From a virus: DNA of 24,623 bases. Location: the IMG/VR virus record IMGVR_UViG_3300023184_000495, positions 1 to 24,623 of that record; one strand, written 5' to 3'. Both the position numbers and the translations under genes were made by a program. Below the pieces are notes generated by a model, which did no database searches, was not told the DNA's origin, and worked only from the letters and a program-made list of their open reading frames with translations. Below, one piece after another: positions 2,782 through 24,623 of the stretch (its first letter is position 1; each line of letters begins with the position of its first letter).

Positions 2782-2789
2782 GGAAAATT

Positions 2790-3901: not shown

Positions 3902-4765
3902 ATGCATGATGTTTTGACAAATGTACCAAATTTAAAAATAGAATGTTTAGACAAGGGATTCGTTCAATTAGTCGATTGTATGCCTAGATTGGCTCCAGAA
4001 GGCCAAACTACGGCAGATTATGCGATTGTACAGGCTGCTAGAGTATCCTATGGATCAGGCACTAAGACCGTAAATGAAGATAGGGGTTTGATTAGATATC
4101 TTCTCAGGCATTCCCACACAACTCCATATGAAATGATTGAATTCAAGTTTTGTTGCAAACTTCCAATATTTATCGCAAGACAGATGATTAGGCATAGATC
4201 GGCAAATGTGAACGAATACAGTGGAAGATATTCAGTAATCAAGGATGAATATTATGTTCCTAAATCTGAAGATATAAAAATACAATCTAAGGAAAACAAA
4301 CAAGGAGGTTCCGAAATAGCTCCTACTGATGTTGCTGATGATTTTAAAAAAAACATAGTTTATCTTGCAGATGAATCGTACGAGAAATATTTAAATTTTA
4401 TGGATTCTGGAATATCAAGGGAACAAGCTAGAATGTTGTTGCCTGTGAGTTATTATACGGAATGGTATTGGAAGATAGATTTACATAATCTTTTACATTT
4501 TTTGGCATTACGATGTGATTCCCATGCTCAATACGAGATCAGAGTATTTGCTGATGCTATTTTAAGTCTGATAAAACCTATAGTTCCTTTAGCTGTCGAG
4601 GCGTGGGAAGATTATCATGTTATGAGAGGTGCCATGAAATTTACTAGCTTGGAATTGGAGGCACTTAAAAAATCCATTCAAGAAAATAAGTTTACAGCAA
4701 TTGATTCTAACAATAAAAGAGAACAATCTGAATGGGAAGATAAAGCTAAGAAATTAGGTTTGTAA
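3902..4765 (+). CDS. thyX: Flavin-dependent thymidylate synthase
   Basis: This 287-residue protein is a ThyX-type thymidylate synthase, which methylates dUMP to dTMP using methylenetetrahydrofolate, NADPH and FAD. The signature RHRx7S is present as R97-H98-R99 and S107 within RHRSANVNEYSGRYS. Upstream, RYLLRHSHTTPYEMIEFKF (about residues 65-83) matches the conserved block before it, and ARMLLPVSYYTEWYW matches the downstream substrate block. The length is slightly above the usual 220-260 residues. AAGGAG lies just before the ATG. It fits the dNMP kinase as part of a phage dTTP supply set, and it lets the phage make thymidylate independently of a host ThyA. Its last 12 nt overlap the convergent hldE-like gene. 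Confidence 0.95.
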   Translation: MHDVLTNVPNLKIECLDKGFVQLVDCMPRLAPEGQTTADYAIVQAARVSYGSGTKTVNEDRGLIRYLLRHSHTTPYEMIEFKFCCKLPIFIARQMIRHRSANVNEYSGRYSVIKDEYYVPKSEDIKIQSKENKQGGSEIAPTDVADDFKKNIVYLADESYEKYLNFMDSGISREQARMLLPVSYYTEWYWKIDLHNLLHFLALRCDSHAQYEIRVFADAILSLIKPIVPLAVEAWEDYHVMRGAMKFTSLELEALKKSIQENKFTAIDSNNKREQSEWEDKAKKLGL

Positions 4766-6139
4766 TTTTTTGATTATATTGGTCGTAGATTCATTTTTAA
4801 TATAATTAGATATAATTGTTTCTGCGACAATATCAGATCCAACAATATCTGATTTTTTATAATCTCCTCCCTTTGCGATTACACATGGTTTTATTTTTTT
4901 AATAACCTCTAACGGTGTGTCTTCATCGAATGCTACAATGTAATCGACAAAGTTTAACTGAGATAGCATTGATATTCTTTTGTTCAAGTTATTTATTGGT
5001 CTGCTTTTGCCTTTTAGTTTTTTAATTGATTCGTCTGAGTTAATGGCGACAACTAATTTGTCTCCATGTGACTTGGCGAATTTAAGTGTTTGTATATGAC
5101 CTTCGTGTAATATATCAAAGCATCCATTTGTGAATACGAGTTTGTTTTTTCTTTGACTTAGTATTTCCGATGTTTCAATAAATTTATTGAAATCTTCAGA
5201 GTTATCTAAAAGTTCAAGTAATGTCAAAGGTTCGTTGTGTATGTTTTTCACATATGAAAGTCCGGCATTAAAAGCGATTTTAGCACAATCTTCTAGTGAA
5301 AAATTATGAGCATAAGCCAAGGCTAAAAATGCGGTAAAGCAATCTCCAGCACCAATCACAGAGCGAACATCTATTTTTTTAGGTTCTGGTATTACTTCAA
5401 AGTAATTATCAGTAGATTCAACTGCCCCATATATTTTATTTCCAGACTCAGTGATGATTACTGCTTTGCAATTAGTTTCTTTTAAAAAATAATTGATTTG
5501 ATCTTTTGGGTTGTTTTTTCCACTTATATTTTTAGCTTCGTTTGAGTTGGGTTTAAATATAGTGCAATTTTTCCATTTGTTTGCTGGTCCGTTTTTAGGA
5601 TCAACAATTGTTATATTGTTTTTAAGATGATTTTTATACCAAGGTGTTTTAAATATTCCCTTGTCGTAATCAGAAAAAACAACAATATCAGATTCTGGGA
5701 TTTGTAATTCGTTGATTGTTTGAGCGTACATTTTTTCGTTAAGATTGTAATTTTCTGTTTCGCAATCCCATCTAACTAAAGGAAAATCTTCATGATAAAA
5801 CCTTTTTTTGACTGGCATTTTAGCATCCCAGCAATTTACCGAATAATCTGTATTGATGTTTTTGCTTAAAATTTCATATCCATAAGAGTCGATTATGGAT
5901 ACCAATTTGCTTTGTACATTAACATATTGAAGTTGTCTGATTACATTGGACGCACCACCAGCAATTGTTTTTGATGGTTTTTCGCACTTTGATTTTAATA
6001 CTGGTATTGGAAATTCAGGGCTTATTCTGTTTGATGTAACTTGATAGTATTCATCTAACATTGAATCTCCGACAACGGTTACTTTTTTTTGTTTTAATAT
6101 TGTTTTACGATAAAGACTGTCAATTAATTTACTTTTCAT
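4754..6139 (-). CDS. hldE: HldE-like bifunctional heptose-7-phosphate kinase / heptose-1-phosphate adenylyltransferase
   Basis: A 461-residue two-domain protein close in length to bacterial HldE (about 475). The N-terminal PfkB/ribokinase domain shows VVGDSMLDEYY (about 22-32), RISPEFPIPV (38-47), the GG-N motif IAGGASNV (59-66) and the catalytic GAGDCF motif (263-268). The C-terminal nucleotidyltransferase domain shows FTNGCFDILHEGH (336-348, with the HxGH site), SRPINNLNKR and AKGGDY (422-427). HldE makes ADP-D-glycero-manno-heptose, the precursor of the lipopolysaccharide inner core in Gram-negative bacteria. All key motifs look intact. The start has a clear AGGAG. In a phage it may alter host surface sugar or supply ADP-heptose for another use; that part is inference. 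It could act on a related sugar. Confidence 0.9.
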   Translation of the reverse strand: MKSKLIDSLYRKTILKQKKVTVVGDSMLDEYYQVTSNRISPEFPIPVLKSKCEKPSKTIAGGASNVIRQLQYVNVQSKLVSIIDSYGYEILSKNINTDYSVNCWDAKMPVKKRFYHEDFPLVRWDCETENYNLNEKMYAQTINELQIPESDIVVFSDYDKGIFKTPWYKNHLKNNITIVDPKNGPANKWKNCTIFKPNSNEAKNISGKNNPKDQINYFLKETNCKAVIITESGNKIYGAVESTDNYFEVIPEPKKIDVRSVIGAGDCFTAFLALAYAHNFSLEDCAKIAFNAGLSYVKNIHNEPLTLLELLDNSEDFNKFIETSEILSQRKNKLVFTNGCFDILHEGHIQTLKFAKSHGDKLVVAINSDESIKKLKGKSRPINNLNKRISMLSQLNFVDYIVAFDEDTPLEVIKKIKPCVIAKGGDYKKSDIVGSDIVAETIISNYIKNESTTNIIKKLQT

Positions 6140-6442: not shown

Positions 6443-6751
6443 TTAAAGTGTTTTTGCAGCGGGATTAGCACCTGTAGTGGCTGGTTTTTTTGTCGCTGAT
6501 TCTTTGGCGGCAGCGGTTACTGCCATGGCTGTTTTGTCTCTGAGTATTGCATCTTGTGTTTTTTTTATTTTTGGGTTTTTGGCTAATCTAGATAATACTT
6601 CTGTTCCAAGTTGATTTGGATTCAAATTTTTGCCTTCAGTTTCTGCATCGATCATTGCTTTTTTTATTTCTCCGCTAAGTTCTGCATCTGCAGCGCCTAC
6701 GATATCAACTTCTTTTAATTCGAGCCATTCTTTAAAACTTAAATTTTTCAT
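6443..6751 (-). CDS. Ala/Lys-rich protein with capsid-targeting-like N terminus
   Basis: The chosen start is ATG 6751, preceded by AGGAACACAATT; the frame extends eight codons farther without a better site. The 102-residue product starts MKNLSFKEWLELKEVD, one of the clearest copies of the amphipathic N-terminal pattern seen on several genes here. The rest is Ala, Lys and Thr rich with no catalytic motif, ending in a flexible-looking tail (ATKKPATTGANPAAK). T4 internal head proteins have a comparable make-up: a short N-terminal targeting peptide followed by a small basic or Ala-rich body. A packaged internal virion protein is the favoured but unproven reading. Its stop directly abuts the convergent HNH gene. 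Confidence 0.65.
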   Translation of the reverse strand: MKNLSFKEWLELKEVDIVGAADAELSGEIKKAMIDAETEGKNLNPNQLGTEVLSRLAKNPKIKKTQDAILRDKTAMAVTAAAKESATKKPATTGANPAAKTL

Positions 6752-6781
6752 AATTGTGTTCCTGATATAATACATATATAT
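6752..6781. promoter_or_regulatory. Short divergent A+T-rich spacer with ATATATAT element
   Basis: Thirty bases separate the divergent starts at 6751 (minus) and 6782 (plus). They contain the minus-gene ribosome site (AGGAAC on the minus strand) and GATATAATACATATATAT, which ends at the GTG of the plus gene. The ACATATATATGT block is palindromic. GATATAAT could be a -10 box for a plus transcript with a leader of only a few bases. Support is positional only. Confidence 0.35.
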
Positions 6782-8256: not shown

Positions 8257-8312
8257 ATGTGATTTGGTTATTATGTAATATAGGTTTTCATATAAGTTCT
8301 AGGGGTTCTACT

Positions 8313-10388
8313 ATGATTGAATTCGAAAATATTTTTCAAGACTATGACCGTTCAAATTACAAGTCTCTTAATTCTGAAATGAGTTTTGCAGATTACTTGG
8401 CTGCTTGTTACGAGAAGCCAAAATTGATAAGAAATTCTTGGCAGATGATATACGATATGATCACCGAAAAAGGATCTTCGTCTATTGAAGAATATAGGAA
8501 GACATATACTCATTATAATTTTTTTGATGATCAAGAAATTCCAATTATTGGTTTAGCACCTTCTAAAGACGCTTTGGTTAAATTTATAAAAGGTGCTGCT
8601 GGTGGTTACGGCACAGAAAAAAGAATTCTTCTTCTTCACGGGCCAGTAGGCAGTTCAAAGTCTACAATTTGCCGTTTGATCAAAAGGGGAATGGAAAAAT
8701 TTTCAAGAACTGATTCTGGTGCTTGGTATTCATTTAAATGGGTCGATTTGCCTGTTGGTGCTGATGGCATTTATACAAGCAAGGAAGATGAAAGTCCTAT
8801 GCACGAGCAACCACTTAAGTTGTTGCCATTAGAGATTCGAAATAAGGTTGTAGCGGAACTTAATTCCATTCACAAAGAAAAAACTCCAGAAGACAAACAA
8901 TCAGAAATTTACAAACTTAAATGCGAAGGGGATTTAAACCCTCGTTGTAAATTTTTCATGAATAAACTTCTTAAGATGTACGATGGTGATCTTAAAAAAG
9001 TTTTAGAGAAGCACATTGTTGTAATTAGAAAAGTTTACGATGAATCAAATCGTTGCGGGATTGCAACATTTCAACCTAAAGATGAAAAGAACCAAGATTC
9101 AACTGAACTTACTGGCGACATTAATTTTAGCAAAATTAGTACTTTTGGCTCCGATTCAGATCCAAGATGTTTTAATTTTGACGGAGAATTTTGTATTGGA
9201 AATAGGGGATTGATAGAATTTATCGAAGCACTTAAATTAGAACAAGCGTTTCTTTACGACCTTCTTGGTGCCTCACAAGAACAAAGTATTAAACCAAAGA
9301 AATTCAGTCAAGTCAGTATCGATGAAGCGATTGTGGCACATACAAACAATCCAGAATACGAGAAGCTCAAGAGTAATCCTTATATGGAAGCTCTTAGAGA
9401 TCGTACTGTTAAAATAGATGTGCCATATACATTGAAGTGGTCGGAAGAAGTGAAGATTCTTGAGAAGGATTATTCTAGAGACAGACTGAACCAACATATT
9501 GCTCCACATACATTAGAAGTCGCAGCATTGTGGGCGATCCTTACAAGATTGCACGATGATAAAGATGGTAAATTAAGTTTAGTAGAAAAAGCAGAATTGT
9601 ATGATGGAAAATTACTTTCGGGATGGACCGAAGATGGGGTTAAAGAATTAAAAGACAAATATCCAGAAGAAGGCATGTCTGGTGGCGTTAGCGTGAGATA
9701 TGTGCAAGATAAAATCAGTAATTGTTTGGCTAACAATCATGAATATGTAAATATGTTTATGGTGCTTAATGAGCTTAAAGAAGGATTGACTAATTCGTCT
9801 TTGTTTACCAACAAAGAACAGGTCGGAAGGTATATGACATGCATCGACCTTGTTGTAAAGAAACTAACTGAAATCCTTAAGAATGAAGTACAAAGAGCTT
9901 TGGTCGGAGATGAAGACGCAATTATTAGACTTTGTACAAATTACATCGATAATGTAATGGCTTATATTAATAAGTCTAAAATGAAAGATCCAATTACTGG
10001 ACAAGATCGTAAGCCAGACGAAAGATTGATGCGTTCAATTGAAGAGAAGATTAGTATTCCAGAACAAGGTAGTGATGATTTTAGAAGGCAGATCGCTGCT
10101 TTTATAGGAAGTCTGGCCAACGATGGTAAGAAATTTAAATATGATTCTAATCCGCAATTGAAGAAAGCCCTTGAAGCAAAACTTTTCGAAGATGTAAAAG
10201 ATACAATTAAATTGTCAACTTTAAATGTATCCGGAACCAATGTGGTAGATAAAACTAGTCAAGAAAAAATCGATGCCATTAAAACTAGATTGATTAAAAG
10301 TTATGGCTACAACGAGAGAAGTGCTACTGATGTTCTTGACTTCGTAGGTTCTATATTTGCTAGAGGCGAATTGGCAGATGAAGATTAA
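8313..10388 (+). CDS. prkA: PrkA/YeaG family AAA+ serine kinase-like protein
   Basis: The chosen start is ATG 8313, with AGGGG upstream; the frame is open 18 codons farther but that part looks non-coding. The 691-residue product is somewhat longer than bacterial PrkA/YeaG (about 640). It has the family N-terminal segment (MSFADYLAACYEKPKLIRNSWQ in pieces about 23-44) and a Walker A loop GPVGSSKST (110-118), the PrkA-type variant with Ser in place of Gly. The C-terminal third, with GQDRKPDERLMRSIEEKI, fits the PrkA C-terminal domain. PrkA homologues are described as serine protein kinases and, more recently, as AAA+ proteins linked to stress and stationary phase. It heads a prkA-yeaH-spoVR cluster with 30-nt and 9-nt gaps, matching the bacterial association. 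Confidence 0.93.
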   Translation: MIEFENIFQDYDRSNYKSLNSEMSFADYLAACYEKPKLIRNSWQMIYDMITEKGSSSIEEYRKTYTHYNFFDDQEIPIIGLAPSKDALVKFIKGAAGGYGTEKRILLLHGPVGSSKSTICRLIKRGMEKFSRTDSGAWYSFKWVDLPVGADGIYTSKEDESPMHEQPLKLLPLEIRNKVVAELNSIHKEKTPEDKQSEIYKLKCEGDLNPRCKFFMNKLLKMYDGDLKKVLEKHIVVIRKVYDESNRCGIATFQPKDEKNQDSTELTGDINFSKISTFGSDSDPRCFNFDGEFCIGNRGLIEFIEALKLEQAFLYDLLGASQEQSIKPKKFSQVSIDEAIVAHTNNPEYEKLKSNPYMEALRDRTVKIDVPYTLKWSEEVKILEKDYSRDRLNQHIAPHTLEVAALWAILTRLHDDKDGKLSLVEKAELYDGKLLSGWTEDGVKELKDKYPEEGMSGGVSVRYVQDKISNCLANNHEYVNMFMVLNELKEGLTNSSLFTNKEQVGRYMTCIDLVVKKLTEILKNEVQRALVGDEDAIIRLCTNYIDNVMAYINKSKMKDPITGQDRKPDERLMRSIEEKISIPEQGSDDFRRQIAAFIGSLANDGKKFKYDSNPQLKKALEAKLFEDVKDTIKLSTLNVSGTNVVDKTSQEKIDAIKTRLIKSYGYNERSATDVLDFVGSIFARGELADED

Positions 10389-10418
10389 AAAACTTTAGAT
10401 TAAGAAAGTAGGTGCCAC

Positions 10419-11627
10419 TTGCCTAGAAGAATAGAAGAAGATCACGCTCAGTTTAGAAACATTGTTTCTGGAAGAATTAGAAAAGCTCTGAAGAAGTTCA
10501 TCAAGAGCGGTAAGATATTTCGCAATCGAGGAAAAAAAGGCAAGATAGCCATTTCTATTCCAAAGATTGATATTCCGCATATTGTTCATGGTGAATCCGA
10601 TGAAGGTGCTGGAAGAGGCCAAGGACAAGATGGAGATGTGATTGGCAAGGACAACAATAAAGGCCAAGGTAATCAGGCTGGACAGGATGAGGCCGAAGGT
10701 CAGATGATAAATCTTGATCTTGAACAGGTCTTGAGGTTCATGCAGGATGAATTAGAACTTCCAAATCTTAAGAGAAAAACCAACGAAACATTTGAAGAAG
10801 TTATTATAAAATATAATAACATTTCTTTGATGGGGCCAGAATCGCTTAGGCATAATCGTAGGACATTTCTAGAAGCACTTAAGAGACAGTCGATAGATGG
10901 AACTATAAATGATTTATATGAAGTTCCCGGCTGTGAAATGCCGATGAAGTTAATCAAACCAATTCCAAAAGATAAAAGATACAGACAATACAAGGAAATA
11001 AAAATTCCTTCAAGTAATGCGTTGATTATTTACGCAAGAGATGGCTCTGGTTCCATGGATGCCTATAAATGCGATATAGTCAGTGATATGGCGTGGTGGA
11101 TCGATGTTTGGATTAAAAGGTTTTATGATCGTGTTGATCGATTGTTTGTCTGGCATGATAGCGTAGCACAAGAAGTCGATGAGGATAAGTTTTACAAATA
11201 TCGTTTTGGTGGCGGAACTACTTGTTCTTCTGCTTTGAAGTTTATATCGAAACAATTCGAAAACAGATATCCGCCTGAAAAATGGAATATATATGTTTTT
11301 TACTTTACTGATGGCGAAAATTGGGGCGATGACAATAAGGTTTTTATTCAAACTTTAAAAGATGAATTTGGACCAGATAAGGTTAATTTATTTGGTGTCA
11401 CTCAAATTCTTTCTTATACATATGAAAATTCAGTTAAACAAATGGTCGATAACGCTTTAAGTGAAAATGTTTTAAGTAGAGACAATGTCATTACCACAAG
11501 CATAAGTGGAGATGAAGGAGAAGGTAAGAATTTTTATAGTTCTGAAATTAGCGAACAACGAAGAAACGAACAAATTTTAGAAGCAATTAAAACTTTAATG
11601 GGCAATAAGAAAACATTAATATTTTAA
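10419..11627 (+). CDS. yeaH: YeaH/YhbH family (DUF444) vWA-domain protein
   Basis: This 402-residue protein starts at TTG 10419, five bases after AGGTG; no closer ATG fits. The N terminus (RRIEEDHAQFRNIVSGRIRK in pieces) and the Gly/Gln/Asp-rich linker at about 60-95 are typical of YeaH/YhbH. The C-terminal half is a von Willebrand A-like domain with a metal-binding DxSxS motif (D208-G-S-G-S212) and a later FTDGENWGDD (about 297-306). Bacterial YeaH is about 430 residues and is partnered with the PrkA kinase YeaG. Its place between prkA and spoVR, close on both sides, supports the same partnership here. The biochemical role of the family is not settled. Confidence 0.93.
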   Translation: MPRRIEEDHAQFRNIVSGRIRKALKKFIKSGKIFRNRGKKGKIAISIPKIDIPHIVHGESDEGAGRGQGQDGDVIGKDNNKGQGNQAGQDEAEGQMINLDLEQVLRFMQDELELPNLKRKTNETFEEVIIKYNNISLMGPESLRHNRRTFLEALKRQSIDGTINDLYEVPGCEMPMKLIKPIPKDKRYRQYKEIKIPSSNALIIYARDGSGSMDAYKCDIVSDMAWWIDVWIKRFYDRVDRLFVWHDSVAQEVDEDKFYKYRFGGGTTCSSALKFISKQFENRYPPEKWNIYVFYFTDGENWGDDNKVFIQTLKDEFGPDKVNLFGVTQILSYTYENSVKQMVDNALSENVLSRDNVITTSISGDEGEGKNFYSSEISEQRRNEQILEAIKTLMGNKKTLIF

Positions 11628-11636
11628 AGGATAAAA

Positions 11637-13253
11637 ATGCAAAATAAGTTTTTTTATGGCGCACCAGTTCTTTTGAGTAACAACACTGTTCCGGGCGTTC
11701 AACTTTCTGCTGAATTAAAAAAATATGTTCCGATGATTTTAAAGTCATGTCAAGATTGGGGTTTGGATTTTTATCCAACCATAGTTCAAATGTTGACATA
11801 CGATGAGATATCAGAAATAGCAGCTTATAGCGGATTTCCAGTTAGATTTCCTCACTGGTCTTTTGGTATGGAATACGAAGAACTTCAGCGAGGATACGAA
11901 TTCGGGGCGCATCGCATATATGAAATGGTAATTAATTCAAAACCATGTGTTATTTATTGTCTTAATAGCAATACACTTGGAGATAATTTAACTGTTGTAG
12001 CTCATGCGACTGGTCATAATGATTTTTTCAAAAATAACATTCACTTTTCCGCTACTAATACTGATATGTTGAATATCATGGCGAATCATGGAAGTAGAAT
12101 TAGAAAGTATATGAGCAGATGGGGCAATGAAAAAGTTACTACCTTTATAGATCATGTGATGAGAATAGAGACGCTTGTAGATGGAGCAAATGCGTGGAAT
12201 CAAAAAGTAATAAAAGATAAAAACTTTAAAGATAAAAGAAAATATAGAAATCCTAAAAGATTGCATGTAGAAAACGAAAGATTATACATGGATTCTTTTA
12301 TAAACACTAAAGAATTTAAGGAAAAAGAAAACTCTAAAATAAATAAAAAATATACAGCAGAAGAATTAGATATTTTTATAAAACCAACAAGAGATATTTT
12401 TGGATTCTTAAAAGAGAACGCCCCTTTAAAGCCTTGGCAACAAGATATAATGTCTATGTTATACGAAGAGGCTTTATATTTCTTCCCTCAAAGACACACC
12501 AAGGTAATGAATGAAGGCTTTGCTTCTACGGTAGATCATGTGATCATGGCAGAACAAGGGAATATTGGCTTGGGGCAAGAATCACATGATGCTGGTATAT
12601 TTGATTATGCTGTTCACAAAATGGGCGTTCTTGGCGGTAAGTATAGCACGAATCCTTATAAACTTGGCTATAATTTATTTGCCGATATTCGTGAGAGATA
12701 CGACAAAGGAAGGTTCGGCACTGAATGGGAACAATGCACGGACATGCACAAAAGAGAAAACTGGAATACAAATACAAATTTAGGCAAAGAAAAGATTTTT
12801 GAAGTAAGAAAACATTATGACGATTTTACATTTTTAAATGAATTCTTTACTGAGGATTTTTGTAGAAAACAAGAATATTTTGAATGGAAAAAACAACCTA
12901 ACGGAGAATTCGTAATCGCATCAAGAGATTACGAAAAAATTAAAAAGAATTTACTTCGAAAATATGTCAATGGCGGTCTGCCAGACATAAGGTTGGAAGA
13001 AAATAATTTTAGAGGAAAAGGTTATTTGTTTTTACAGCATCATTCCACAGGACAAAGGATTTACGATCCTTATGTTCGTGATGTGTTGACATCAATTAGA
13101 GCCATATGGGGTAACGATGTGTATTTTGCAACTAAATCTCCAGATGGAACTGAGCATGTCTATGATTGTCATGGACCTGACTCGACAAAAGATGTTTCGG
13201 TTAAAACTAAACAAGGATTCATAGGAGCAGACAGAAATGACAGAAACGAATGA
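11637..13253 (+). CDS. spoVR: SpoVR/YcgB family protein
   Basis: A 538-residue protein of the SpoVR family, slightly longer than E. coli YcgB (about 510). Diagnostic segments are YPTIVQMLTYDEISEIAAY (about 41-59), FPHWSFGMEYEEL (about 72-84), AHATGHNDFFKNN (about 122-134) and NEGFASTVDHVIMAEQGN (about 289-306, where the bacterial family has EGWA). The C-terminal TGQRIYDPYVRDVLTSI is also family-like. SpoVR is needed for spore cortex formation in Bacillus; in other bacteria it co-occurs with PrkA and YeaH in stress operons, and its reaction is unknown. AAAGGATAAAA precedes the ATG, 9 nt after yeaH. Its last 17 nt overlap the glycosyltransferase-like gene, so the cluster may extend into that gene. 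Confidence 0.94.
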   Translation: MQNKFFYGAPVLLSNNTVPGVQLSAELKKYVPMILKSCQDWGLDFYPTIVQMLTYDEISEIAAYSGFPVRFPHWSFGMEYEELQRGYEFGAHRIYEMVINSKPCVIYCLNSNTLGDNLTVVAHATGHNDFFKNNIHFSATNTDMLNIMANHGSRIRKYMSRWGNEKVTTFIDHVMRIETLVDGANAWNQKVIKDKNFKDKRKYRNPKRLHVENERLYMDSFINTKEFKEKENSKINKKYTAEELDIFIKPTRDIFGFLKENAPLKPWQQDIMSMLYEEALYFFPQRHTKVMNEGFASTVDHVIMAEQGNIGLGQESHDAGIFDYAVHKMGVLGGKYSTNPYKLGYNLFADIRERYDKGRFGTEWEQCTDMHKRENWNTNTNLGKEKIFEVRKHYDDFTFLNEFFTEDFCRKQEYFEWKKQPNGEFVIASRDYEKIKKNLLRKYVNGGLPDIRLEENNFRGKGYLFLQHHSTGQRIYDPYVRDVLTSIRAIWGNDVYFATKSPDGTEHVYDCHGPDSTKDVSVKTKQGFIGADRNDRNE

Positions 13254-14632: not shown

Positions 14633-14728
14633 ATGGAAAACTTTTCCAAGAAAGGAGACATCGGAATGAAGATGGAAGTAACTGGTTTTGAACACTTACA
14701 TCTTCATTCCGATGTTTTAGCCCAGTAG
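14633..14728 (+). CDS. dnaE: DnaE N-terminal piece: first PHP motif, ends at an in-frame stop
   Basis: A 31-codon frame ending in VTGFEHLHLHSDVLAQ-stop. HLHLHSD is the first metal-binding motif of the PHP domain that opens bacterial DnaE, normally followed by (E/D)YSLLDG. Here the reading stops at TAG 14726-28, but 23 nt later another frame continues with EFSLLDGFGT, exactly the missing part. Removing 14711-14750 (40 nt) would give HLHSEFSLLDG. Two starts are in frame: ATG 14633 after GAGGT, and ATG 14666 after AAAGGAG; the second gives MKMEVTGFEHLH, more like family length. This piece alone cannot be functional. It is probably joined to the next piece by recoding, or is the broken start of a gene that re-initiates downstream. 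Confidence 0.75.
   Translation: MENFSKKGDIGMKMEVTGFEHLHLHSDVLAQ
14655..14718 (+). promoter_or_regulatory. 20-bp hairpin enclosing the dnaE start codon
   Basis: ACATCGGAATGAAGATG (14658-14674) is the exact reverse complement of CATCTTCATTCCGATGT (14699-14715), a 17-bp perfect stem. Three more pairs (G-U, A-U, G-U) extend it to 14655 and 14718, with a 24-nt loop. The stem holds the ATG at 14666 and half of its Shine-Dalgarno sequence, so folding should block initiation there. The right arm encodes the conserved HLHS codons and reaches into the 40-nt insertion. Confidence 0.75.
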
Positions 14729-14747
14729 ATCGGAAAGTCTGCTGGGC
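14720..14747 (+). promoter_or_regulatory. Hairpin holding the stop codon: candidate translational-bypass signal
   Basis: GCCCAGTAGA (14720-14729) pairs with TCTGCTGGGC (14738-14747) in a 10-bp stem with one G-U pair and an 8-nt loop TCGGAAAG. The in-frame TAG is inside the 5' arm. The codon just before the stem is TTA (14717-14719). The same codon TTA occurs at 14760-14762 in the downstream frame, with GGAG ending 8 nt before it. Matching take-off and landing codons, a stop-containing hairpin at take-off and an SD-like element before landing are the features of T4 gene 60 bypassing. Confidence 0.6.
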
Positions 14748-14762
14748 GGAGAATTCAGCTTA

Positions 14763-16064
14763 TTGGACGGATTCGGAACCGTTGAAGAATATTCCGCTAG
14801 AGCCATTCAAATAAATCAAAACTTTTTGACTGTAAGCGATCATGGAATGTTGGGTGCAGTTCCAAGGCAAATAAAGGCTTGCGAAATAATTTGTGACAAA
14901 TACGGAAAAGACAAATTGTCTCCTATATTTGCCGCAGAGCTTTATATGAATCCTTTGCAGCCAGATTCAAAGAATTCAGAAGAACTATCCAAATATACAT
15001 CAGAATTATCTCCTGATGAAATGAATATATTTAAAGCAAGTCCGCATTTACTTGCCATTGCTTATAATGAGACAGGATATAAAAATCTTGTAAATTTAAC
15101 CTCTTGGGGATTTACAAGAGGTTTTTATCGTAAGCCAAGAGTTAATTACGAACAATTATTGCTTCACAAAGAAGGACTGTATTTCACTTCGTGTTGTTAC
15201 AACAGTGAAATAGGCAGGGCATTTGATGCTGGTGGCGAAGAATCAGCATTTCAAATGATTGAAAAATATATTTCTATGTTTGGTAAAGATAATTATTATC
15301 TTGAAATAATGTTGTTAGATTTCAAGAAGCAAAAGCCATACAATCAATTTATCGTTAAAGCAAAAGAAAAATATAATTTAAAAATTATATTGAGTCAGGA
15401 TTGCCATTATTGTTTGCAAGAAGATAGCCACTATCAAAGATTAATGTTGATGGTACAGACGAATAGAACAATTCAAGAAATTCAAAACGCACTCAAAGAA
15501 GATGCCATGAGAGACTTCTTTGAGTTGCAAGATGCCAATTTATGGATGAAGTCCGAGGAAGAACTAAATGATAAATGGTTAAGTGATTATAGCGATGTTG
15601 TTCCTTATGAAATATTTTGTGAAGCAAAAAGTACTACTGTTGAAATATGCAGAAAAGCAAAAGGCGTGAAACTTGATAGAAGTTTAAAATTACCAAGTTT
15701 TCCTGATTGTGATGAAAAATTAAAAGAATTAGTCGTATATGGTTATCGCAAGAAAAAACTACCAGATACAAATGAATATAAAAGCAGAATCAAAGAAGAA
15801 CTTGGTTTGATAACAAGAAAAGGATTTAGCACATATTTTCTTATTCAGAAGATGATGACTGATGAAGCTAGAAAGTGGTGTAAAGAATTTTTAGGCGGAG
15901 ATGGGTCGCAAGCAGTTGGTCCGGGTAGGGGTTCTTGTTGTGGCTCATTGATTTGTTATTGTTTGGGCATTACAGATGTTGATCCAATAAAAGAAGATCT
16001 GCTTTTTTCTAGATTCATGAGTGAAGCTAGAGGTGGCAGATCTATAAAATTAGAAATGGAATGA
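14763..16064 (+). CDS. dnaE: DNA polymerase III alpha, N-terminal fragment (PHP plus start of palm)
   Basis: This frame of 433 codons from TTG 14763 continues the PHP domain: LDGFGTVEEYSARA, LTVSDHGML, PIFAAELYMN and ILSQDCHYC are the successive PHP motifs. It then enters the polymerase palm: RIKEELGLITRKGFSTYFLI and the nucleotide-binding GPGRGSCCGSLICYCLGITDVDP near the end. It stops after LLFSRFMSEARGG plus eight extra residues, just before the PDIDVDY catalytic motif, which is on the next fragment. The coding frame is open upstream to GGC 14745. Landing of bypassing ribosomes at TTA 14760, or initiation at TTG with GGAG upstream, are both possible. The protein must pair with the second fragment to make an active site. 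Confidence 0.9.
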   Translation: MDGFGTVEEYSARAIQINQNFLTVSDHGMLGAVPRQIKACEIICDKYGKDKLSPIFAAELYMNPLQPDSKNSEELSKYTSELSPDEMNIFKASPHLLAIAYNETGYKNLVNLTSWGFTRGFYRKPRVNYEQLLLHKEGLYFTSCCYNSEIGRAFDAGGEESAFQMIEKYISMFGKDNYYLEIMLLDFKKQKPYNQFIVKAKEKYNLKIILSQDCHYCLQEDSHYQRLMLMVQTNRTIQEIQNALKEDAMRDFFELQDANLWMKSEEELNDKWLSDYSDVVPYEIFCEAKSTTVEICRKAKGVKLDRSLKLPSFPDCDEKLKELVVYGYRKKKLPDTNEYKSRIKEELGLITRKGFSTYFLIQKMMTDEARKWCKEFLGGDGSQAVGPGRGSCCGSLICYCLGITDVDPIKEDLLFSRFMSEARGGRSIKLEME

Positions 16065-16067
16065 AAA

Positions 16068-16565
16068 TTAAATTATATTTTTATTTTTCAATTCGATAAC
16101 CAAGCTGCTTGCGAAAGTTGTATTTTTACAAAATTCTACAGTTTCTTTAATTGTTTTGTGCATATTTGCTGGAACAATAGAACCTTCGTTTTTTATCTTT
16201 TTAGCTAATTGTGAAACTTTCATATTTCTAGTTTCTTTAGCCCATTCAGATACCGAGCTTACTTTTGGTTCGTAAATAAGTTTCTTATCGCCTTCGTGTC
16301 CAAGTCCTTCTGAATCATCTTTACATTTTGAAGATTTCATTTCCTTGCCTTCATCGCCAAGACCATCTTCTGGTTCTGCAATAAATTTAGATTTTTTGGT
16401 TGGATTTGAATATGGGGATGGTTTTTCTTTTTGTCCATCGTATTTTTCTGGGGAATTTGGAGGTTCATCGTCAAATGTAGCAATGAGTTTTACATCTGGA
16501 TCTTCTTGCATTTTGCCCTTGGAATTCAAATATTCATGAAAGGAAATAAATTCGGTTTTGTTCAT
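16068..16565 (-). CDS. Unknown protein with capsid-targeting-like N terminus, inserted between dnaE fragments
   Basis: A 165-residue minus-strand protein, ATG 16565 preceded by AAGGTG. It starts MNKTEFISFHEYLNSKGKM, matching the short amphipathic N-terminal pattern of other small genes here. A low-complexity middle has an imperfect repeat (DGLGDEGKEM and EGLGHEGDKK) and many Pro, Ser, Lys and Glu. The C-terminal part is more regular (SVSEWAKETRNMKVSQLAKK, then MHKTIKETVEFCKNTTFASS). No enzyme motif is seen. It is convergent with the N-terminal dnaE fragment, only 3 nt apart, and divergent from the tmRNA. It is probably a virion-internal protein unrelated to the polymerase. Confidence 0.65.
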   Translation of the reverse strand: MNKTEFISFHEYLNSKGKMQEDPDVKLIATFDDEPPNSPEKYDGQKEKPSPYSNPTKKSKFIAEPEDGLGDEGKEMKSSKCKDDSEGLGHEGDKKLIYEPKVSSVSEWAKETRNMKVSQLAKKIKNEGSIVPANMHKTIKETVEFCKNTTFASSLVIELKNKNII

Positions 16566-16639
16566 TTTTCACCTTGATTTTTTAAAGTACAAACATTATT
16601 GATATATATGTTGCGTTTTATATTTTTTATATGAAATTC

Positions 16640-16980
16640 GGGGGCGAGATAGTTTCGATTGTTGTGGAATTTCAATTGTTGCATGTAGTGGTTGATCGAA
16701 AGGCCACTTAAAACTTCGATCACAATATAGGTGCAGAACCTGTTTTTTCTATGGCTGCTTAATTAAGCTACCTCAAATTTAGAAGATTTTGACTATTCTA
16801 AATTTGCATTAGTCAAATAGTTTTGGTGTATGTTGTGGACATCAAGGCAAAATTCAACAAATCGTTTGCGAAAATTTTTGGTTGTTATAAATTCGTAAAT
16901 TAAACTTTAATAATAACACAAACATGTAGACGCACTTGAGATGAGATAGCAAGACACCGGGGCGGTTCCGGTCGCCTCCA
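16640..16980 (+). ncRNA. ssrA: Transfer-messenger RNA (tmRNA)
   Basis: A complete one-piece tmRNA of 341 nt. GGGGGCG (16640-16646) pairs fully with CGCCTCC (16973-16979), and a G3-U70 wobble marks it for alanyl-tRNA synthetase; the discriminator is A16980 and CCA is not encoded. The 5' side continues AGATAGTTTCGATTG, like the tmRNA D-loop region. Pseudoknot 1 is formed by AGTGG/CCACT (16687-16691 with 16704-16708) and GATCGAA/TTCGATC (16694-16700 with 16715-16721). Eleven nt later comes the resume codon GCA, with UAG at -5 to -3 as in E. coli. The 3' end has the 17-nt T arm with stem ACCGG/CCGGT, but the 7-nt loop is GGCGGTT instead of TTCRANN. T-rich sequence follows and may end transcription. 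tmRNA rescues stalled ribosomes. Confidence 0.95.
16733..16762 (+). other. tmRNA tag reading frame (AEPVFSMAA-stop)
   Basis: From resume codon GCA 16733 the frame reads A-E-P-V-F-S-M-A-A and stops at TAA 16760-16762. The final Ala-Ala is the usual protease-recognition end; Met replaces the common Leu or Val before it. The region after the stop (TTAAGCTACC) fits helix 5 of tmRNA. With the alanine carried by the tmRNA itself, the added tag would be ten residues. Confidence 0.9.
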
Positions 16981-17034
16981 CTTTTTTCATTTTTTAGACT
17001 TCCACAAAAAGTTAATTTTTATTATTGTTTAAAC

Positions 17035-18705
17035 ATGGCTATAAACAGAGAAAGCATTGTATCTTATTTAAAAAATAAGATTGAAGACGAAAGCATCCTT
17101 TATCAAAAAAGGTTGAATTGGGAGATTGCGGAAATAGACGCAAAAGAAAAATGGGATTATTTTATAAATCTTTATTTGTACAAAAAGAAATTCGATACAA
17201 ATAAAAACAATTTATTGGTTCCATATCTTTTAGGGATAGTTATTGATTTTGATATCAACAAGAATCCAGAATGTTACTTTGGTGAGTTTCCAGATATCGA
17301 TGTCGATTACATTGGTACGGTTAGAGATTATTTGAAAAACGAATGGGCAAAAAAACAGTTTGGTGAAAATTATGTTTGTAGTATTGGGAACTATACAACA
17401 TTTGGAATCAAGTCTGCACTTATCGATATGGCTAGGGTTCACGGTATACCAAGAGAAGACATTCTTGTTTTAACAAAAGATCTTGATGCAAAAGACGAAG
17501 AAGGTAAAGCCTTGACATGGGAAGCTGCCATGAGGCTGTATCCTGCGTTGAAGAAATTTTGCGATGAACATCCAGATGTCGCCAAAGCATCTCAAAAACT
17601 AATCAATCGCAATAGAGGAATGGGTGTACATGCTGGTGGCTTAATTATAAGTTCCATTCCGTTGACCGATTTGGTTCCTTTGGTTAAAAGAAAGGAAAGT
17701 CCACAAGCATCTGCTTGGGTGGAAGGTTTACATGGTCAAGACTTACAGCCAGTAGGATTAGTTAAATTCGATCTATTAGTTGTATCGAATCTATCGCAGA
17801 TAGCTCAATGTTGTGAATTGGTCAAGCATAGGCATGGTTTAACTTCCATATGTGCTTTGGAATCTCAGCCAGACTGGACAGATGTAGATAAATGGAGAAA
17901 TGACGAGAAATCATTGGCTATGGCTAATGATGGAGATTTAAAGTGTGTATTTCAATTTGATAGCGAAGGAATTAGAAAGTTAGCAAAAGATGGAGGGGTG
18001 ACATCCTTTGATGATATGGTTGCTTATTCTTCTATTTATAGGCCCGGTCCTTTGAACATGAAAATGCACGAGAGATATATTGAAAGGAAAAGAGGCAGAG
18101 AACAATATAGCTTGCACCCAATTTTAGATTCCATATTAGGCAAAACATATGGAGTTATGATTTACCAAGAACAAGTTATGCAAATTTTGAATAAAGTAGG
18201 TGGGATTCCATTAAAAGATTGTGAGGCCGTAAGAAAGGCTATTTCTAAGAAAAAAGTAGAGGCATTTTTAAAATATAAAGAAATGTTTGTTAAGAACGGA
18301 CAAGTAAGTTTAAATTGTTCAGAAAAAGAAATAAACAGCTTGTTTGATCAAATAATTTCCTTTTCAGAATATGGCTTTAACAGATGTGTAACGAAGGACA
18401 ACCTTGTTTACGATCATGTTCGTAAAAGTTATGTGACGATTGGTGAGTTATTTGAGGAGTTTCAGTCCGAAGGTGGCACACAAGTTATCCTTGATTCTTT
18501 TGTAGACAACAAGATAATTAAGGATAATCTAGTTGATGTGTTTGAGACAGGAGAAAAAGAAGTTTATGAAATCGAATTGGATAATGGAATTACTTTGCGT
18601 ACAACGCTAGATCATAAATTTATGTGTTCTAATGGTTTGTATCATACTATTCAAGAAATTTTTGATAATGATTTAGAAATATTATCGGATTCATACTCTA
18701 TGTAA
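17035..18705 (+). CDS. dnaE: DNA polymerase III alpha, middle fragment with N-terminal half of a split intein
   Basis: The 556-residue product carries the catalytic core of DnaE. PDIDVDY (86-92) supplies the first two active-site Asp, and VKFDLL (243-248, D246) supplies the third. The GVHAGG block (197-202), VFQFDSEG, YRPGPL and YGVMIYQEQVMQI are also present. Residues 1-85 resemble a degenerate second copy of the palm segment at the end of the N-terminal fragment (YQKRLNWEIAEID, DYFINL, LLVPYLLGI), but without GPGRGS. The polymerase part ends at FSEYGFNR (ending at base 18384); from C451 to the end it is an N-intein. ATG 17035 has no clear ribosome site and lies 54 nt after the tmRNA. Its product must be trans-spliced to the fragment starting at 19842. 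Confidence 0.93.
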   Translation: MAINRESIVSYLKNKIEDESILYQKRLNWEIAEIDAKEKWDYFINLYLYKKKFDTNKNNLLVPYLLGIVIDFDINKNPECYFGEFPDIDVDYIGTVRDYLKNEWAKKQFGENYVCSIGNYTTFGIKSALIDMARVHGIPREDILVLTKDLDAKDEEGKALTWEAAMRLYPALKKFCDEHPDVAKASQKLINRNRGMGVHAGGLIISSIPLTDLVPLVKRKESPQASAWVEGLHGQDLQPVGLVKFDLLVVSNLSQIAQCCELVKHRHGLTSICALESQPDWTDVDKWRNDEKSLAMANDGDLKCVFQFDSEGIRKLAKDGGVTSFDDMVAYSSIYRPGPLNMKMHERYIERKRGREQYSLHPILDSILGKTYGVMIYQEQVMQILNKVGGIPLKDCEAVRKAISKKKVEAFLKYKEMFVKNGQVSLNCSEKEINSLFDQIISFSEYGFNRCVTKDNLVYDHVRKSYVTIGELFEEFQSEGGTQVILDSFVDNKIIKDNLVDVFETGEKEVYEIELDNGITLRTTLDHKFMCSNGLYHTIQEIFDNDLEILSDSYSM

Positions 18706-18712
18706 GAGTATG
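18692..18712 (+). promoter_or_regulatory. Stop-start hairpin between N-intein and endonuclease gene
   Basis: CATACTC (18692-18698) and GAGTATG (18706-18712) form a perfect 7-bp stem with loop TATGTAA. The loop holds the stop codon of the N-intein frame (TAA 18703-18705) and the 3' arm holds the ATG of the endonuclease (18710). A ribosome terminating on the first gene would open it, so endonuclease translation may depend on upstream translation. Confidence 0.5.
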
Positions 18713-19810
18713 AAACATCATGAATACTTGCAATACAAACATTTAAGGAAACTTTATTTTAAAGGAAAATATTATAAAGAAATTTCTGTAGAATTAAAGA
18801 CTACCGTTGACTATATTAGCCAGAAAGTCAAAGAACATAATCTCAATGATAAGCGAGAGCGTTGGTACGAGTATTTAGTGACACATGCATATGGAACGGA
18901 AAAACAATTGTGTGAAGTTGCCACTTTGGTTGGAATCAGTGTTTCTATTTTGAATAGAGTCAAGCGTAAGCTGGGAATTAAAACTAAGCGATTTACTATC
19001 CACAACAAGAGGATAACCAGCGATATTAAAGATCAAATGGTTGATTTTTATAAATCTGGAATGACTGGCACAGAAGTCGCCAAAAAATTTGGCTACAAAA
19101 CATCTAAGACAGTCGAAGATGTATTAAAAGAAAAAAATGTAGAAGCAAGAGAGGCGTGTTTTCGTCGCAAATATGACTACGATTTTTTTAAATTAGTTAA
19201 TTCTCATGACAAAGCGTACATTCTTGGTTTACTCTATACAGATGGTTATATTTATAAAGACTACGCTGGTTTTGCGATTCAGTTAACTGAGGGTGATCGA
19301 TATTTGCTCGAAAGGATTGCTGCTAAAATCGGTCTTGGTGCTTCAGTAATTCACATCAACTGTGATGGCAAGAGAAAAAAAATGCCTAATGCTAAGGACA
19401 TGGCAAGGCTTGGCGTTTATTCCAAAGTATTGGCCAAACAAGTAAAAAAACTTGGTGTCGTAAAAAGAAAAACTTATCATCTATCTGTTTCGTCTAATCT
19501 TATACCAAAGAAGTATCGTTACAGTTTACTTCGTGGAATAATAGATGGTGATGGATCTGTTGGTGTAGACAAAAGAGGTGTTATTTGGCTGAAAGTGTGC
19601 ATGAAGTCTGAGCAATTTGCAAAAGATATTTGTAGTTTGTTTCCTGATGACTTTTCGTTTAATAAATTTCAGAATAATTATGGTGACATGTATTACATTT
19701 CTATCCTTGGTGGTCGAAGCAACACTATTCGAATGTTGCGAAAAATATACAAGCATAAAGGCGATCTTTACTTACAGCGAAAATATGATAAAATTTATTC
19801 TTATCTATAA
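18710..19810 (+). CDS. LAGLIDADG homing endonuclease within split intein
   Basis: A 366-residue protein with three helix-turn-helix-like segments in its N-terminal half (about 14-42, 65-88 and 106-141, for example MTGTEVAKKFGYKTSKTVEDVL) and a two-motif LAGLIDADG domain: YILGLLYTDGYI (about 170-181) and LLRGIIDGDGSV (about 273-284). The acidic residues of each motif (Asp in YTDGY and in DGDGS) are present, so it is probably active. Such enzymes cut an intein-less allele and spread the element by recombination. The start is ATG 18710, four bases after the N-intein stop. It is a free-standing protein, not fused to the intein, which sets this element apart from most inteins. The HTH part likely binds the target or its own promoter. 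Confidence 0.9.
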   Translation: MKHHEYLQYKHLRKLYFKGKYYKEISVELKTTVDYISQKVKEHNLNDKRERWYEYLVTHAYGTEKQLCEVATLVGISVSILNRVKRKLGIKTKRFTIHNKRITSDIKDQMVDFYKSGMTGTEVAKKFGYKTSKTVEDVLKEKNVEAREACFRRKYDYDFFKLVNSHDKAYILGLLYTDGYIYKDYAGFAIQLTEGDRYLLERIAAKIGLGASVIHINCDGKRKKMPNAKDMARLGVYSKVLAKQVKKLGVVKRKTYHLSVSSNLIPKKYRYSLLRGIIDGDGSVGVDKRGVIWLKVCMKSEQFAKDICSLFPDDFSFNKFQNNYGDMYYISILGGRSNTIRMLRKIYKHKGDLYLQRKYDKIYSYL

Positions 19811-19841: not shown

Positions 19842-21275
19842 ATGAAGATATGCAAGATTAAATCGATAAAACATTTGGGAATGCAAAAAACTTACAATTT
19901 GACGATGGCATCTGAACAGCACAATTATGCAATTTGTGGAACTACTCCAAGCAAATTTGTCATCAGTCGTAATTCCCATGCCGTTGCGTACATGTACATA
20001 AGTGCTAGGCTTCTTTATTTGAAATCTCATTATCCATTGGAGTTTTACGCTTCTATTTTGAAATGCGAAAATGTATCTGATAAGATTAAGGACTATAAGA
20101 TAGAGGCAAAAAATCACAACATTGAAATAAGAACTTTGGATTTAAACAATTCTAAAGAAGGCTTTGGTTTGGTTGACGATAATTTGTATTTTGGATTTTC
20201 TAATGTAAAGGGCATAGGCACAGAGCCAGCGAAAAGGATAGTTGAGGGTCAGCCATACTCTGGATTTGAAGATTTTTTAAAGAGATTTGGCACAGACGCT
20301 TCGGTTCTTAAGTGTCTTATTGGTTTGCGTTGTTTCAAGGAAGCTGATCCTGTAGTTCTTTGGAAGTACCTTGAGTTTTTCAAAGAATATAAAAAGAAAA
20401 TTGTCGATAAAGAAAATAGATTTAAAAACAATTTTGATAAATCCGAAGAACTATATGGTTTTTTTACATCTAATTCTGAAACAATTAAATTTTCCGATTT
20501 AACTGGTGACGATCCTTTTTCTGATGTTTATTGGCAACAATATGATACCGAAATCGAGATCGAAATAGAAAAAGAAACAGAATGCGATGCTGATGAAGGA
20601 GAATATTCAAAAATCGTTATAAAAAATATAAAAGTAGATGAGTCTGGTTTGATTATAGAAGAAGAAAGATTGAAATATTTTAAAAAAATAAAAGTAAAGA
20701 AAAAACTTAATCGTCTTAACGAACTAAAGAAACTATGGTCTAAAAGACAACAGAATCTTGAAAAATATAAAAGTGTTTTTAATATTCCTAGTTTTGAATC
20801 TTTTAATCCCGAAAAACAAACAATCGATAAAAACATACAAAGTGAGCTTGAAGATTTATTTGGATGTGAGAAAAAGTATTATGGATTTTCTTGGACAAGT
20901 AAATTGTCTAATAGTTCTATGAGTAAAACATTTTCTTTAAGAAAAGAAAATAAAATTGGCAATGGATATGTGGAATTTGAAATTGTAGATGTTAAAAAAT
21001 ATAAAACTAAAGCTGGTGCTGATTATTTGCAAATAAAAGGTCAAGACTTCGATGGTATAGAAGAAAGAATAAATGTTTGGTCGGAAGATGTGGAGAGATG
21101 GCATCAAGAATTGAAAAAAGGTAACTTAATTAGAATGAAAGTAACTCCGCCATCTAAAGGGTTTAATACTTTCAGCATAGAATCCAACAGATCGAAAAAT
21201 TATGTTAAAAAGAACATGATTTGGACTTCGAAAGAAGAAGACCCTAGAGTTATAATTTTGAAAGGAATAGACTAA
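19842..21275 (+). CDS. dnaE: DNA polymerase III alpha, C-terminal fragment preceded by C-intein
   Basis: The 477-residue product starts with the 44-residue C-intein (to N44) and continues S45-HAVAYMYISARLLYLKSHYPLEFYASIL, the DnaE block after GFN(K/R). Next come LYFGFSNVKGIG (helix-hairpin-helix region, about 107-118) and FEDFLKRFG. A long charged segment (about 190-300, Lys/Glu-rich) has no bacterial counterpart that I recognise. At the end is an OB-fold-like domain (VEFEIVDVKKYKTKAGADYLQIKG, then NLIRMKVTPP). The usual C-terminal clamp-binding and tau-binding regions are not apparent, so clamp contact may differ. AGAAGG lies upstream of ATG 19842. After trans-splicing this completes the polymerase. 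The stop overlaps the next ATG (TAATG). Confidence 0.92.
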   Translation: MKICKIKSIKHLGMQKTYNLTMASEQHNYAICGTTPSKFVISRNSHAVAYMYISARLLYLKSHYPLEFYASILKCENVSDKIKDYKIEAKNHNIEIRTLDLNNSKEGFGLVDDNLYFGFSNVKGIGTEPAKRIVEGQPYSGFEDFLKRFGTDASVLKCLIGLRCFKEADPVVLWKYLEFFKEYKKKIVDKENRFKNNFDKSEELYGFFTSNSETIKFSDLTGDDPFSDVYWQQYDTEIEIEIEKETECDADEGEYSKIVIKNIKVDESGLIIEEERLKYFKKIKVKKKLNRLNELKKLWSKRQQNLEKYKSVFNIPSFESFNPEKQTIDKNIQSELEDLFGCEKKYYGFSWTSKLSNSSMSKTFSLRKENKIGNGYVEFEIVDVKKYKTKAGADYLQIKGQDFDGIEERINVWSEDVERWHQELKKGNLIRMKVTPPSKGFNTFSIESNRSKNYVKKNMIWTSKEEDPRVIILKGID

Positions 21276-24438: not shown

Positions 24439-24623
24439 ATGTTTATAGGCGCAACAAATTTTAATTCTGGAAAAAATAAAGGACCAACAGGTGCTGGCTT
24501 AACAGGATTAACTGGTGCTACTGGATTAACTGGTGCTACTGGATTAACTGGTGCTACTGGATTAACTGGTGCTACTGGATTAACTGGTGCTACTGGATTA
24601 ACTGGTGCTACAGGATTAACTGG
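24439..24623 (+). CDS. Collagen-like fibre protein, cut by window edge
   Basis: The frame starts at ATG 24439 ([20 protein letters not shown]) and runs to the window edge. From about residue 14 it consists of G-x-y triplets, mainly GLT and GAT, as in collagen-like phage tail-fibre or fibril proteins. Such triplets form trimeric helices that stiffen fibres. There is no strong ribosome site, so it may be coupled to the previous gene. The C-terminal domain that would tell the function lies outside the window. Confidence 0.75.
24505..24623 (+). repeat. 18-bp tandem repeat encoding G-L-T-G-A-T
   Basis: The unit GGATTAACTGGTGCTACT recurs head to tail at 24505, 24523, 24541, 24559, 24577 and 24595. 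The sixth copy ends in ACA, and a partial seventh copy runs to the window end. Each unit encodes two collagen-like triplets. The near-identity at DNA level suggests recent expansion, so copy number may vary between isolates or be collapsed in assembly. Confidence 0.95.

Follow-up and report, generated by a model that had tools for sequence, protein, structure and literature searches.

Replicative polymerases are normally regarded as indivisible at the active site, and the locus described here raises the question of what becomes of such an enzyme when its gene is broken precisely at that point. The locus lies in a 24.6-kb IMG/VR fragment from an uncultured phage (record IMGVR_UViG_3300023184_000495, positions 1 to 24,623; this whole stretch is referred to as the window). 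Here, the coding sequence for DnaE, the alpha chain of DNA polymerase III (Pol III), is spread over three frames, i.e. f1 (14763-16064 as called), f2 (17035-18705) and f3 (19842-21275). Based on the analyses reported here, we suggest that dnaE was duplicated, that the two copies sustained complementary deletions in the palm domain, and that two chains rebuild one active site in trans; we put the probability of this reading at roughly 0.74. The elements on which the argument rests are as follows.

14754-16064, plus strand: main part of f1, PHP domain and N-terminal half of the palm (Pfam, PHROGs, NCBIfam)
15708-16037, plus strand: palm copy 1, f1 residues 316-425, with GPGRGS (15918-15935), SRF and SEARGG; the side that binds deoxynucleoside triphosphate (dNTP)
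16038-16061, plus strand: short tail of f1 at the position of the catalytic strand
17035-18705, plus strand: f2, with palm copy 2, catalytic strand, fingers and then the N-terminal half of a split intein
17035-17289, plus strand: palm copy 2 (f2 residues 1-85), which has no GS loop (hhalign against the f1 palm)
17290-17310, plus strand: catalytic strand PDIDVDY with metal-binding aspartates, f2 residues 86-92
17764-17772, plus strand: KFD, the conserved K244 and the third catalytic aspartate D246, invariant in the family
19842-21275, plus strand: f3, with the C-terminal intein half (IntC, 19842-19973, ending ...ISRN) and then the C-terminal part of DnaE (SHAVAY..., HHH domain)

Across f1, f2 and f3, the Pfam domains PHP, DNA_pol3_alpha, finger and HHH_6 follow each other in collinear order, and the best fold matches are solved Pol III alpha chains. 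In f1 (433 residues as called), the PHP domain covers residues 1-183 and DNA_pol3_alpha is matched at positions 3-98 of 260; f2 matches positions 100-259 of the same family from residue 84 onward, plus the finger domain; and f3 matches PF14579 (HHH_6) and NF005616/PRK07373 (match at 4-138). In structure alignments with E. coli Pol III alpha (2hnh), f1 residues 1-426 correspond to residues 12-399 (Z 28.8) and f2 residues 91-450 to residues 405-758 and, therefore, the break falls directly at the first catalytic aspartate. Motif positions and Pfam matches confirm what an earlier note on this DNA had read from the letters: f1 contains GPGRGS, LICYCLGITDVDP and LLFSRFM and lacks PDxDxD, while PDIDVDY is in f2. 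The GS motif and the catalytic aspartates are, in other words, both present but on different chains.

The same note had taken the approximately 85 residues ahead of PDIDVDY in f2 for a second copy of the palm without GPGRGS, and had named beforehand a profile match of this segment to the DnaE palm among its tests. The match is significant. A profile of f2 residues 1-85 built from 35 family members aligns to the f1 palm profile with a score of 45.4 (P 6e-8, hhalign), compared to a mean of 11.3 (standard deviation 2.4, maximum 23.0) for 300 column shuffles and to at most 15.7 for f1 windows outside the palm. NCBIfam model NF004550 spans f2 residues 21-451 collinearly at profile positions 252-677, the segment 1-85 alone matches the phage DNA polymerase family phrog_405 in 15 of 24 family members (E up to 1), and the hits of f1 1-423 and f2 2-450 overlap within the unsplit DnaE of the metagenomic phage LR756511.1 (595 kb). 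The observation of a second palm copy therefore holds. Taken by itself, the window's f2 segment 1-85 gives no passing Pfam match, and against PDB sequences its matches are weak, with the top five all to Pol III alpha at 312-345 (E 0.6-1.1). LR756511.1 is the nearest full-length relative found (52% identity to f1 and 43% to f2), and its DnaE is one uninterrupted open reading frame (ORF) of 1183 residues with a single palm and one full match.

The two palm copies have retained complementary residues. Copy 1 has GPGRGS at f1 residues 386-391, the FSRF helix and SEARGG; the chain stops eight residues later, and this end point is the same throughout the relatives. G386, R389, G390, S391, R417 and R423 are invariant among 27 aligned sequences, which include the intact DnaE of relative L007. 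From its sequence, the eight-residue tail could be left over either from the catalytic strand or from the helix that follows the strand. Copy 2 follows the pattern YxKRLxWExxEI..YFLxL..N.NNLLv with invariant R26, E30, Y42, F43, N56, N59 and G83, and has thus kept the helices (YxKRLxWExxEI, YFLxL, LLvpyLLGI). It is short of about 20 residues including GPGRGS, a stretch now occupied by N56, N58 and N59, all invariant or nearly so, and it has also lost the SRF helix before the catalytic strand. Further on in f2, P86, D87, D89, D91, K244 and D246 are invariant in 36 aligned sequences, again with the intact DnaE of L007 among them. In the C-family polymerases, catalysis depends on aspartates (D401, D403 and D555 in E. 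coli) and the GS loop and arginines contact the triphosphate; because of this established knowledge, we assign the metal-binding set to f2 and the triphosphate-binding set to f1. The catalytic role of KFD in f2 is one that we take over from the same family.

Sequence variation indicates that both palm copies are maintained by purifying selection, the f2 copy somewhat more loosely. The ratio of nonsynonymous to synonymous polymorphism (pN/pS) is 0.22 for the f1 palm copy and 0.20 for PHP, compared to 0.31 for f2 1-85 and 0.18 for f2 86-300, and the ratio of nonsynonymous to synonymous substitution rates (dN/dS) of the f1 palm copy is about 0.10. The missing parts, i.e. the GPGRGS loop in f2 and the PDxDxD strand in f1, look like clean deletions. 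Thus, the term “reciprocally decayed” used in the earlier note does not fit if understood as ongoing decay, and the copies are better described as reciprocally deleted and then conserved.

This architecture is not peculiar to the window. The group consists mostly of very large, uncultured phages, and every sequence is metagenomic. Scans of viral contigs returned 58 loci with f1 and 52 with f2, and all 43 distinct f2 sequences begin 83-93 residues before PDxDxD. In the relatives, f1 lies upstream of f2 on the same strand at a distance of 2.2-13.4 kb, and in those of the split type the two are separate frames and not the single polypeptide of a C-family DnaE. Moreover, f1 and f2 co-diverge, as their distances over 21 phages are strongly correlated (Mantel r 0.857, 0 of 5000 permutations). 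When 30 split-type records (up to 459 kb; none known to be complete) were searched whole, 26 had exactly one PF07733 match at 2-98 and one at 100-259; of the other four, one has this pair together with a divergent mini-DnaE, two show the C-type match alone, and in one the N-type match is broken. As for a complete second dnaE, which the earlier note had considered as the contrary case, the related split-type records yielded no intact dnaE with a PHP domain, the window itself being only a 24.6-kb fragment. The sole candidate to turn up was the divergent mini-DnaE, a 573-residue protein without PHP but with a GS motif and LPDIDIDF, encoded at 1385-3103 of locus L118 in the same record (G029) as an f1 and an f2. 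The Bacteroides phages SJC03 and DAC20 were rejected as split cases; their DnaE is one annotated gene of 3825 bases.

The complementary invariant residues on f1 and f2 support the proposal of the earlier note that the two proteins must complement each other in trans, and we suggest the following model. In this model, dnaE was duplicated in an ancestor of this large-phage group. The upstream copy would have retained PHP and the half of the palm that binds dNTP (GPGRGS loop, SRF arginine helix) and lost everything from the catalytic strand onward. The downstream copy would have lost the PHP domain and the GPGRGS loop and retained the helices that form the scaffold of the palm entry, the aspartates for metal binding (PDIDVDY, KFD), the fingers and the C-terminal domains. 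f1 and f2 would then assemble such that f1 provides the triphosphate-binding and f2 the metal-binding elements of one active site, and f3, the C-terminal third, would in the window be joined to f2 via the split intein. We infer the duplication event, the physical assembly, the composite active site and the role as phage replicase from the sequence patterns described above. In f2, the second palm copy may act as a scaffold or as a surface for docking. In the monomer model of f2, helices are predicted with confidence for residues 1-80, and the predicted local distance difference test score (pLDDT) falls below 50 in the PDIDVDY loop (82-92) and in the strand region 230-252, which is what a palm sheet dependent on a partner would show; all structures are monomer predictions from shallow alignments. 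If the model is correct, the split between the dNTP-binding loop and the metal-binding strand is conserved with the intervening scaffold present twice, and duplication followed by complementary deletion would be a route from one catalytic domain to an obligate heterodimer. It would also offer a natural system for testing which palm elements need covalent linkage.

Several points weigh against this model. The low confidence of the f2 palm may simply reflect the shallow alignment (36 rows), VIA-align did not place the modelled f2 residues 1-80 on the solved palm, and the f2 palm copy might occupy the place needed by the copy in f1. The conserved N56, N58 and N59 of f2 could be a replacement nucleotide-binding loop. 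Finally, 8 of the 10 large records, the unsplit LR756511 among them, encode a small PolA-like protein (frames of about 440 residues) that could share replication, and G029 also holds the mini-DnaE with both GS and DxD.

The first of the alternatives, that f2 (with f3) is self-sufficient, that dNTP binding was re-invented via the N-x-N-N loop and that f1 is an exonuclease, chaperone or regulator, is the one that survives best, and we consider it unlikely. It would account for the helices of f2 1-85 being kept and under selection and for N56 and N59 being (nearly) invariant exactly at the position of the lost GPGRGS. However, a mere PHP accessory would have no need for the invariant GPGRGS and SRF arginine of f1, the SRF-helix arginine has also been lost from f2, and the f2 palm alone is not confidently folded in the model. 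It is quite improbable that f1 and f2 are instead joined into a single chain or message by a split intein, a trans-splicing intron or a long bypass. The same gene does have a split intein at the f2/f3 break, a probable recoding site at its N-terminus and, in one relative, a group I intron at that N-terminal site. But an intein at the f1/f2 break was rejected since no intein half was found on either side, i.e. at the f1 end with its eight-residue tail or at the f2 start, and an intron between the two was likewise rejected, as only a transfer-messenger RNA (tmRNA) reached significance there. f1 and f2 each have their own stop and start, other genes lie in the 2.2-13.4 kb between them, and the resulting chain would hold the palm entry twice. 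Less probable still is that the dnaE fragments are pseudogene remnants with replication carried out by a host enzyme or by the PolA-like protein of the large records; dnaE is indeed broken three times in the window, but all segments, the two palm copies included, are under purifying selection, f1 and f2 co-diverge, the catalytic residues are invariant and the same architecture with open frames occurs in 43 distinct f2 sequences, all of which argues against decay. That the contig was misassembled, or that a single genome recently acquired an insertion, has a negligible chance of being the explanation; the window is a single uncultured contig, but dozens of independent contigs from different metagenomes show the same break.

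The earlier note had offered two origins for the split, and its duplication with complementary losses agrees with our data; the other, an insertion carrying the tmRNA and a minus-strand gene, does not. Two elements lie between f1 and f2.

16068-16565, minus strand: ORF of 165 residues
16640-16983, plus strand: tmRNA (RF00023)

The tmRNA reported in the earlier note is real and full length (RF00023, 100.4 bits against a gathering threshold of 47, model positions 1-374); in the window it was found by Rfam and not detected by ARAGORN, and downstream of the resume codon GCA it encodes AEPVFSMAA*. The minus-strand ORF has no family match in the libraries used (Pfam, PHROGs). At least 43 distinct f2 sequences share the split, the distance between f1 and f2 varies, and of 10 relatives examined, 5 have the tmRNA between the two genes; because the split is thus common to phages with and without a tmRNA at this place, the insertion is rejected as the splitting agent and the tmRNA is a syntenic resident between f1 and f2.

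The f2/f3 break has a different origin, and the following elements bear on it.

18385-18702, plus strand: N-terminal half of a split intein (IntN; TIGR01445 intein_Nterm, f2 residues 451-531)
18710-19810, plus strand: free-standing LAGLIDADG-type homing endonuclease between the intein halves (PF14528 above cut-off, phrog_4645)

The TIGR01445 match scores 37.4 bits against a cut-off of 24.5. The intein interrupts f2 at residue 451, and IntC (...ISRN) precedes SHAVAY at the f3 start, such that the two halves sit on separate chains at one insertion point; trans-splicing is predicted. The split intein of cyanobacterial DnaE is the known comparison case, and Dassa and colleagues reportedly described in 2009 split inteins with free-standing homing endonucleases in “fractured genes”. 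With IntN on f2, IntC on f3 and the endonuclease gene in between, the f2/f3 break is of this known type. The fractured-gene systems, however, account for this break only and not for that between f1 and f2. Intein-like insertions are also seen elsewhere in dnaE of relatives, in L045 and L058 (f1 residue ~66), L063 (~200) and L019 and L023 (f2 ~340-367); in L039, one lies at f1 residue ~390, within the GPGRGS motif itself.

A split alpha chain has a precedent. Iyer and colleagues (2021, PMC7824862) reported, for jumbo phages of group 2.2, a minimal Pol III alpha that is split into an NTP-binding and a Mg/DNA-binding protein and occurs beside PolB. The N unit of Agrobacterium phage Atu_ph07 (ASV44743.1, phrog_11127; 177 residues, annotated as hypothetical) ends ...GVGRGSCVSSYILYIIGVHKVNSIKYDLDFSEFLE, which is the same breakpoint as in f1; its C unit was not found with the profiles A5, phrog_21652 and PF17657. 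The two systems are alike in that the N unit, which binds NTP, and the C unit, which binds Mg and DNA, are encoded separately. However, the N unit in the window has a PHP domain and the C part comprises fingers, HHH and additional C-terminal domains. Here, the palm entry is on both chains, an overlap that the available portion of that paper does not describe for the group 2.2 form. Also, group 2.2 phages have PolB, whereas PolB (PF00136) was not detected in 10 large records (9 split-type records and LR756511), which may be incomplete. Thus, the present enzyme would work like the split minimal Pol III but is not a member of the minimal family, and, as far as the open-licence literature goes, a PHP-bearing split DnaE with a doubled palm entry and no detected PolB seems to be new.

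The third interruption of dnaE lies close to its 5' end, where three further features are found.

14633-14728, plus strand: true 5' end of f1, ORF MENFSKKGDIGMKMEVTGFEHLHLHSD(VLAQ*), identified from the sequence and containing the PHP metal motif HxH
14659-14714, plus strand: 5' stem-loop within the coding sequence, with a perfect 16-bp stem (14659-14674 with 14699-14714)
14714-14753, plus strand: coding gap of 40 nt, candidate ribosome bypass, with the stop TAG at 14726-14728 and a second hairpin at 14720-14747

The gene start at 14763 set by the ORF caller is an artefact. TTG 14763 was rejected as the start because L036 (99% identical over its 285 residues) has TTA at this position and because relatives join HLHLH upstream. 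Translation from ATG 14633, in a frame differing from that of f1, yields the PHP metal motif GFEHLHLHSD; 27 codons of this upstream ORF belong to f1 before it runs into TAG at 14726, and the f1 frame resumes at TTC 14754 after the 40-nt out-of-frame gap containing the stop. In relatives, GFEHLHLH(S/T)D is directly joined to FS(V/L)LDG in one frame. The 5' stem-loop ends at the putative take-off codon GAT (14711-14713). With its two adjacent hairpins, the region 14640-14770 has a minimum free energy of -56.7 kcal/mol compared to -29.7 (standard deviation 3.2) for shuffles (z -8.5), and the stem of the second hairpin is still paired in L036 (TCTGCTGGGC to TCTACTGGGC).

We distinguished alleles of type A (hairpin gap of 40-42 nt), type B (stop plus 5-8 nt) and type X (composite). 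Among 48 distinct f1 sequences, 19 are uninterrupted, 6 are of type A and 17 of type B, 3 have CTT/CTC-TAA-CTT/CTA, 1 is composite (L117) and 2 are without the upstream part. More than half of the relatives are thus interrupted at this dnaE site, and interrupted alleles include the window (14633-14770), L036, L021, L026/L078, L110 and L113. A stem ending at the break is 10-16 bp long in all 25 rows of types A, B and X, as opposed to 4-6 bp in 20 uninterrupted rows. The f1 tree requires at least 14 changes of state, and the stem accompanies the interruption in 10 of 10 independent pairs (p 0.002). Gap lengths of 5, 6, 7, 8, 40, 41 and 42 nt cover all three phases and, therefore, one fixed frameshift is not the explanation. 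A search for the type A hairpin over all viral contigs returned 8 contigs, all at this dnaE site. The landing codon mostly does not match the take-off codon: CAY with landing CAT occurs only in L059, landing codons are NAY in 14 of 17 type B alleles, and in type A they are GAA or AAC for take-off GAY.

In L042, L053 and L046/L103, the sequence upstream of the f1 LDG reads CTT-TAA-CTT, CTT-TAA-CTA or CTC-TAA-CTT, with the stop between leucine codons. These three alleles have at best a 4-6 bp stem before the site, and they resemble the synthetic “stop-hops” (PMC5009743). One of the two alleles without the upstream part, in the L048/L090 record, adjoins a group I intron (RF00028, 90.7 bits; L048 5767-5992) that ends directly at the same dnaE position; L050 and L062 have, judged by eye, a similar-looking intron end just upstream of f1.

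For T4 gene 60, in which a stop follows the take-off codon, it has been proposed that the completed 5' stem-loop pulls the mRNA through (PMC5009743), and the same 2016 review counts as known bypass cases T4 gene 60 and yeast mitochondria, together with a candidate from Streptomyces phages. The dnaE site shares with T4 gene 60 the two out-of-frame coding parts, the stop at or near the take-off site, the 5' stem-loop ending at take-off and a coding gap (40-42 nt or 5-8 nt; 50 nt in T4 gene 60). It differs in the gene concerned and in that the dnaE landing triplets are in most alleles near-cognate and not identical. Ribosome bypass is, in our analysis, the best reading of the N-terminal gap; removal at the RNA level is possible for the 40-nt type and unlikely for gaps of 5-8 nt. 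That the gene combines both peculiarities, i.e. a replicase active site on two chains and a hairpin-driven ribosome hop over a mobile cassette of 5-8 or 40-42 nt that was repeatedly gained and lost, we regard as an even bet. If true, the locus would represent a natural family of counterparts to the T4 gene 60 bypass, including CTT-TAA-CTT “stop-hops”, and its alleles with and without the element would lend themselves to the study of ribosome hopping.

Other genes in the window also deserve mention. PrkA kinase, DUF444 (YeaH-like) and SpoVR are encoded in a row at 8259-13253, a bacterial stress-type set in a phage; a ThyX-type thymidylate synthase and a PfkB kinase-cytidylyltransferase fusion (HldE-like) are encoded at 3902-4765 and 4754-6139 (minus strand), respectively. 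Small proteins encoded at 2326-3320, 6443-6775 (minus strand) and 16068-16565 (minus strand), the last being the ORF between f1 and f2, have similar N-terminal motifs, with the starts SFKEWLELKE, ISYLEWIKLKE, ISFHEYLNSKG and ISFKSYLERR, which are reminiscent of the capsid-targeting N-terminus of T4 internal proteins. Lastly, the start of a collagen-like protein with GATGLT repeats is encoded at 24439-24623 and runs off the contig end.

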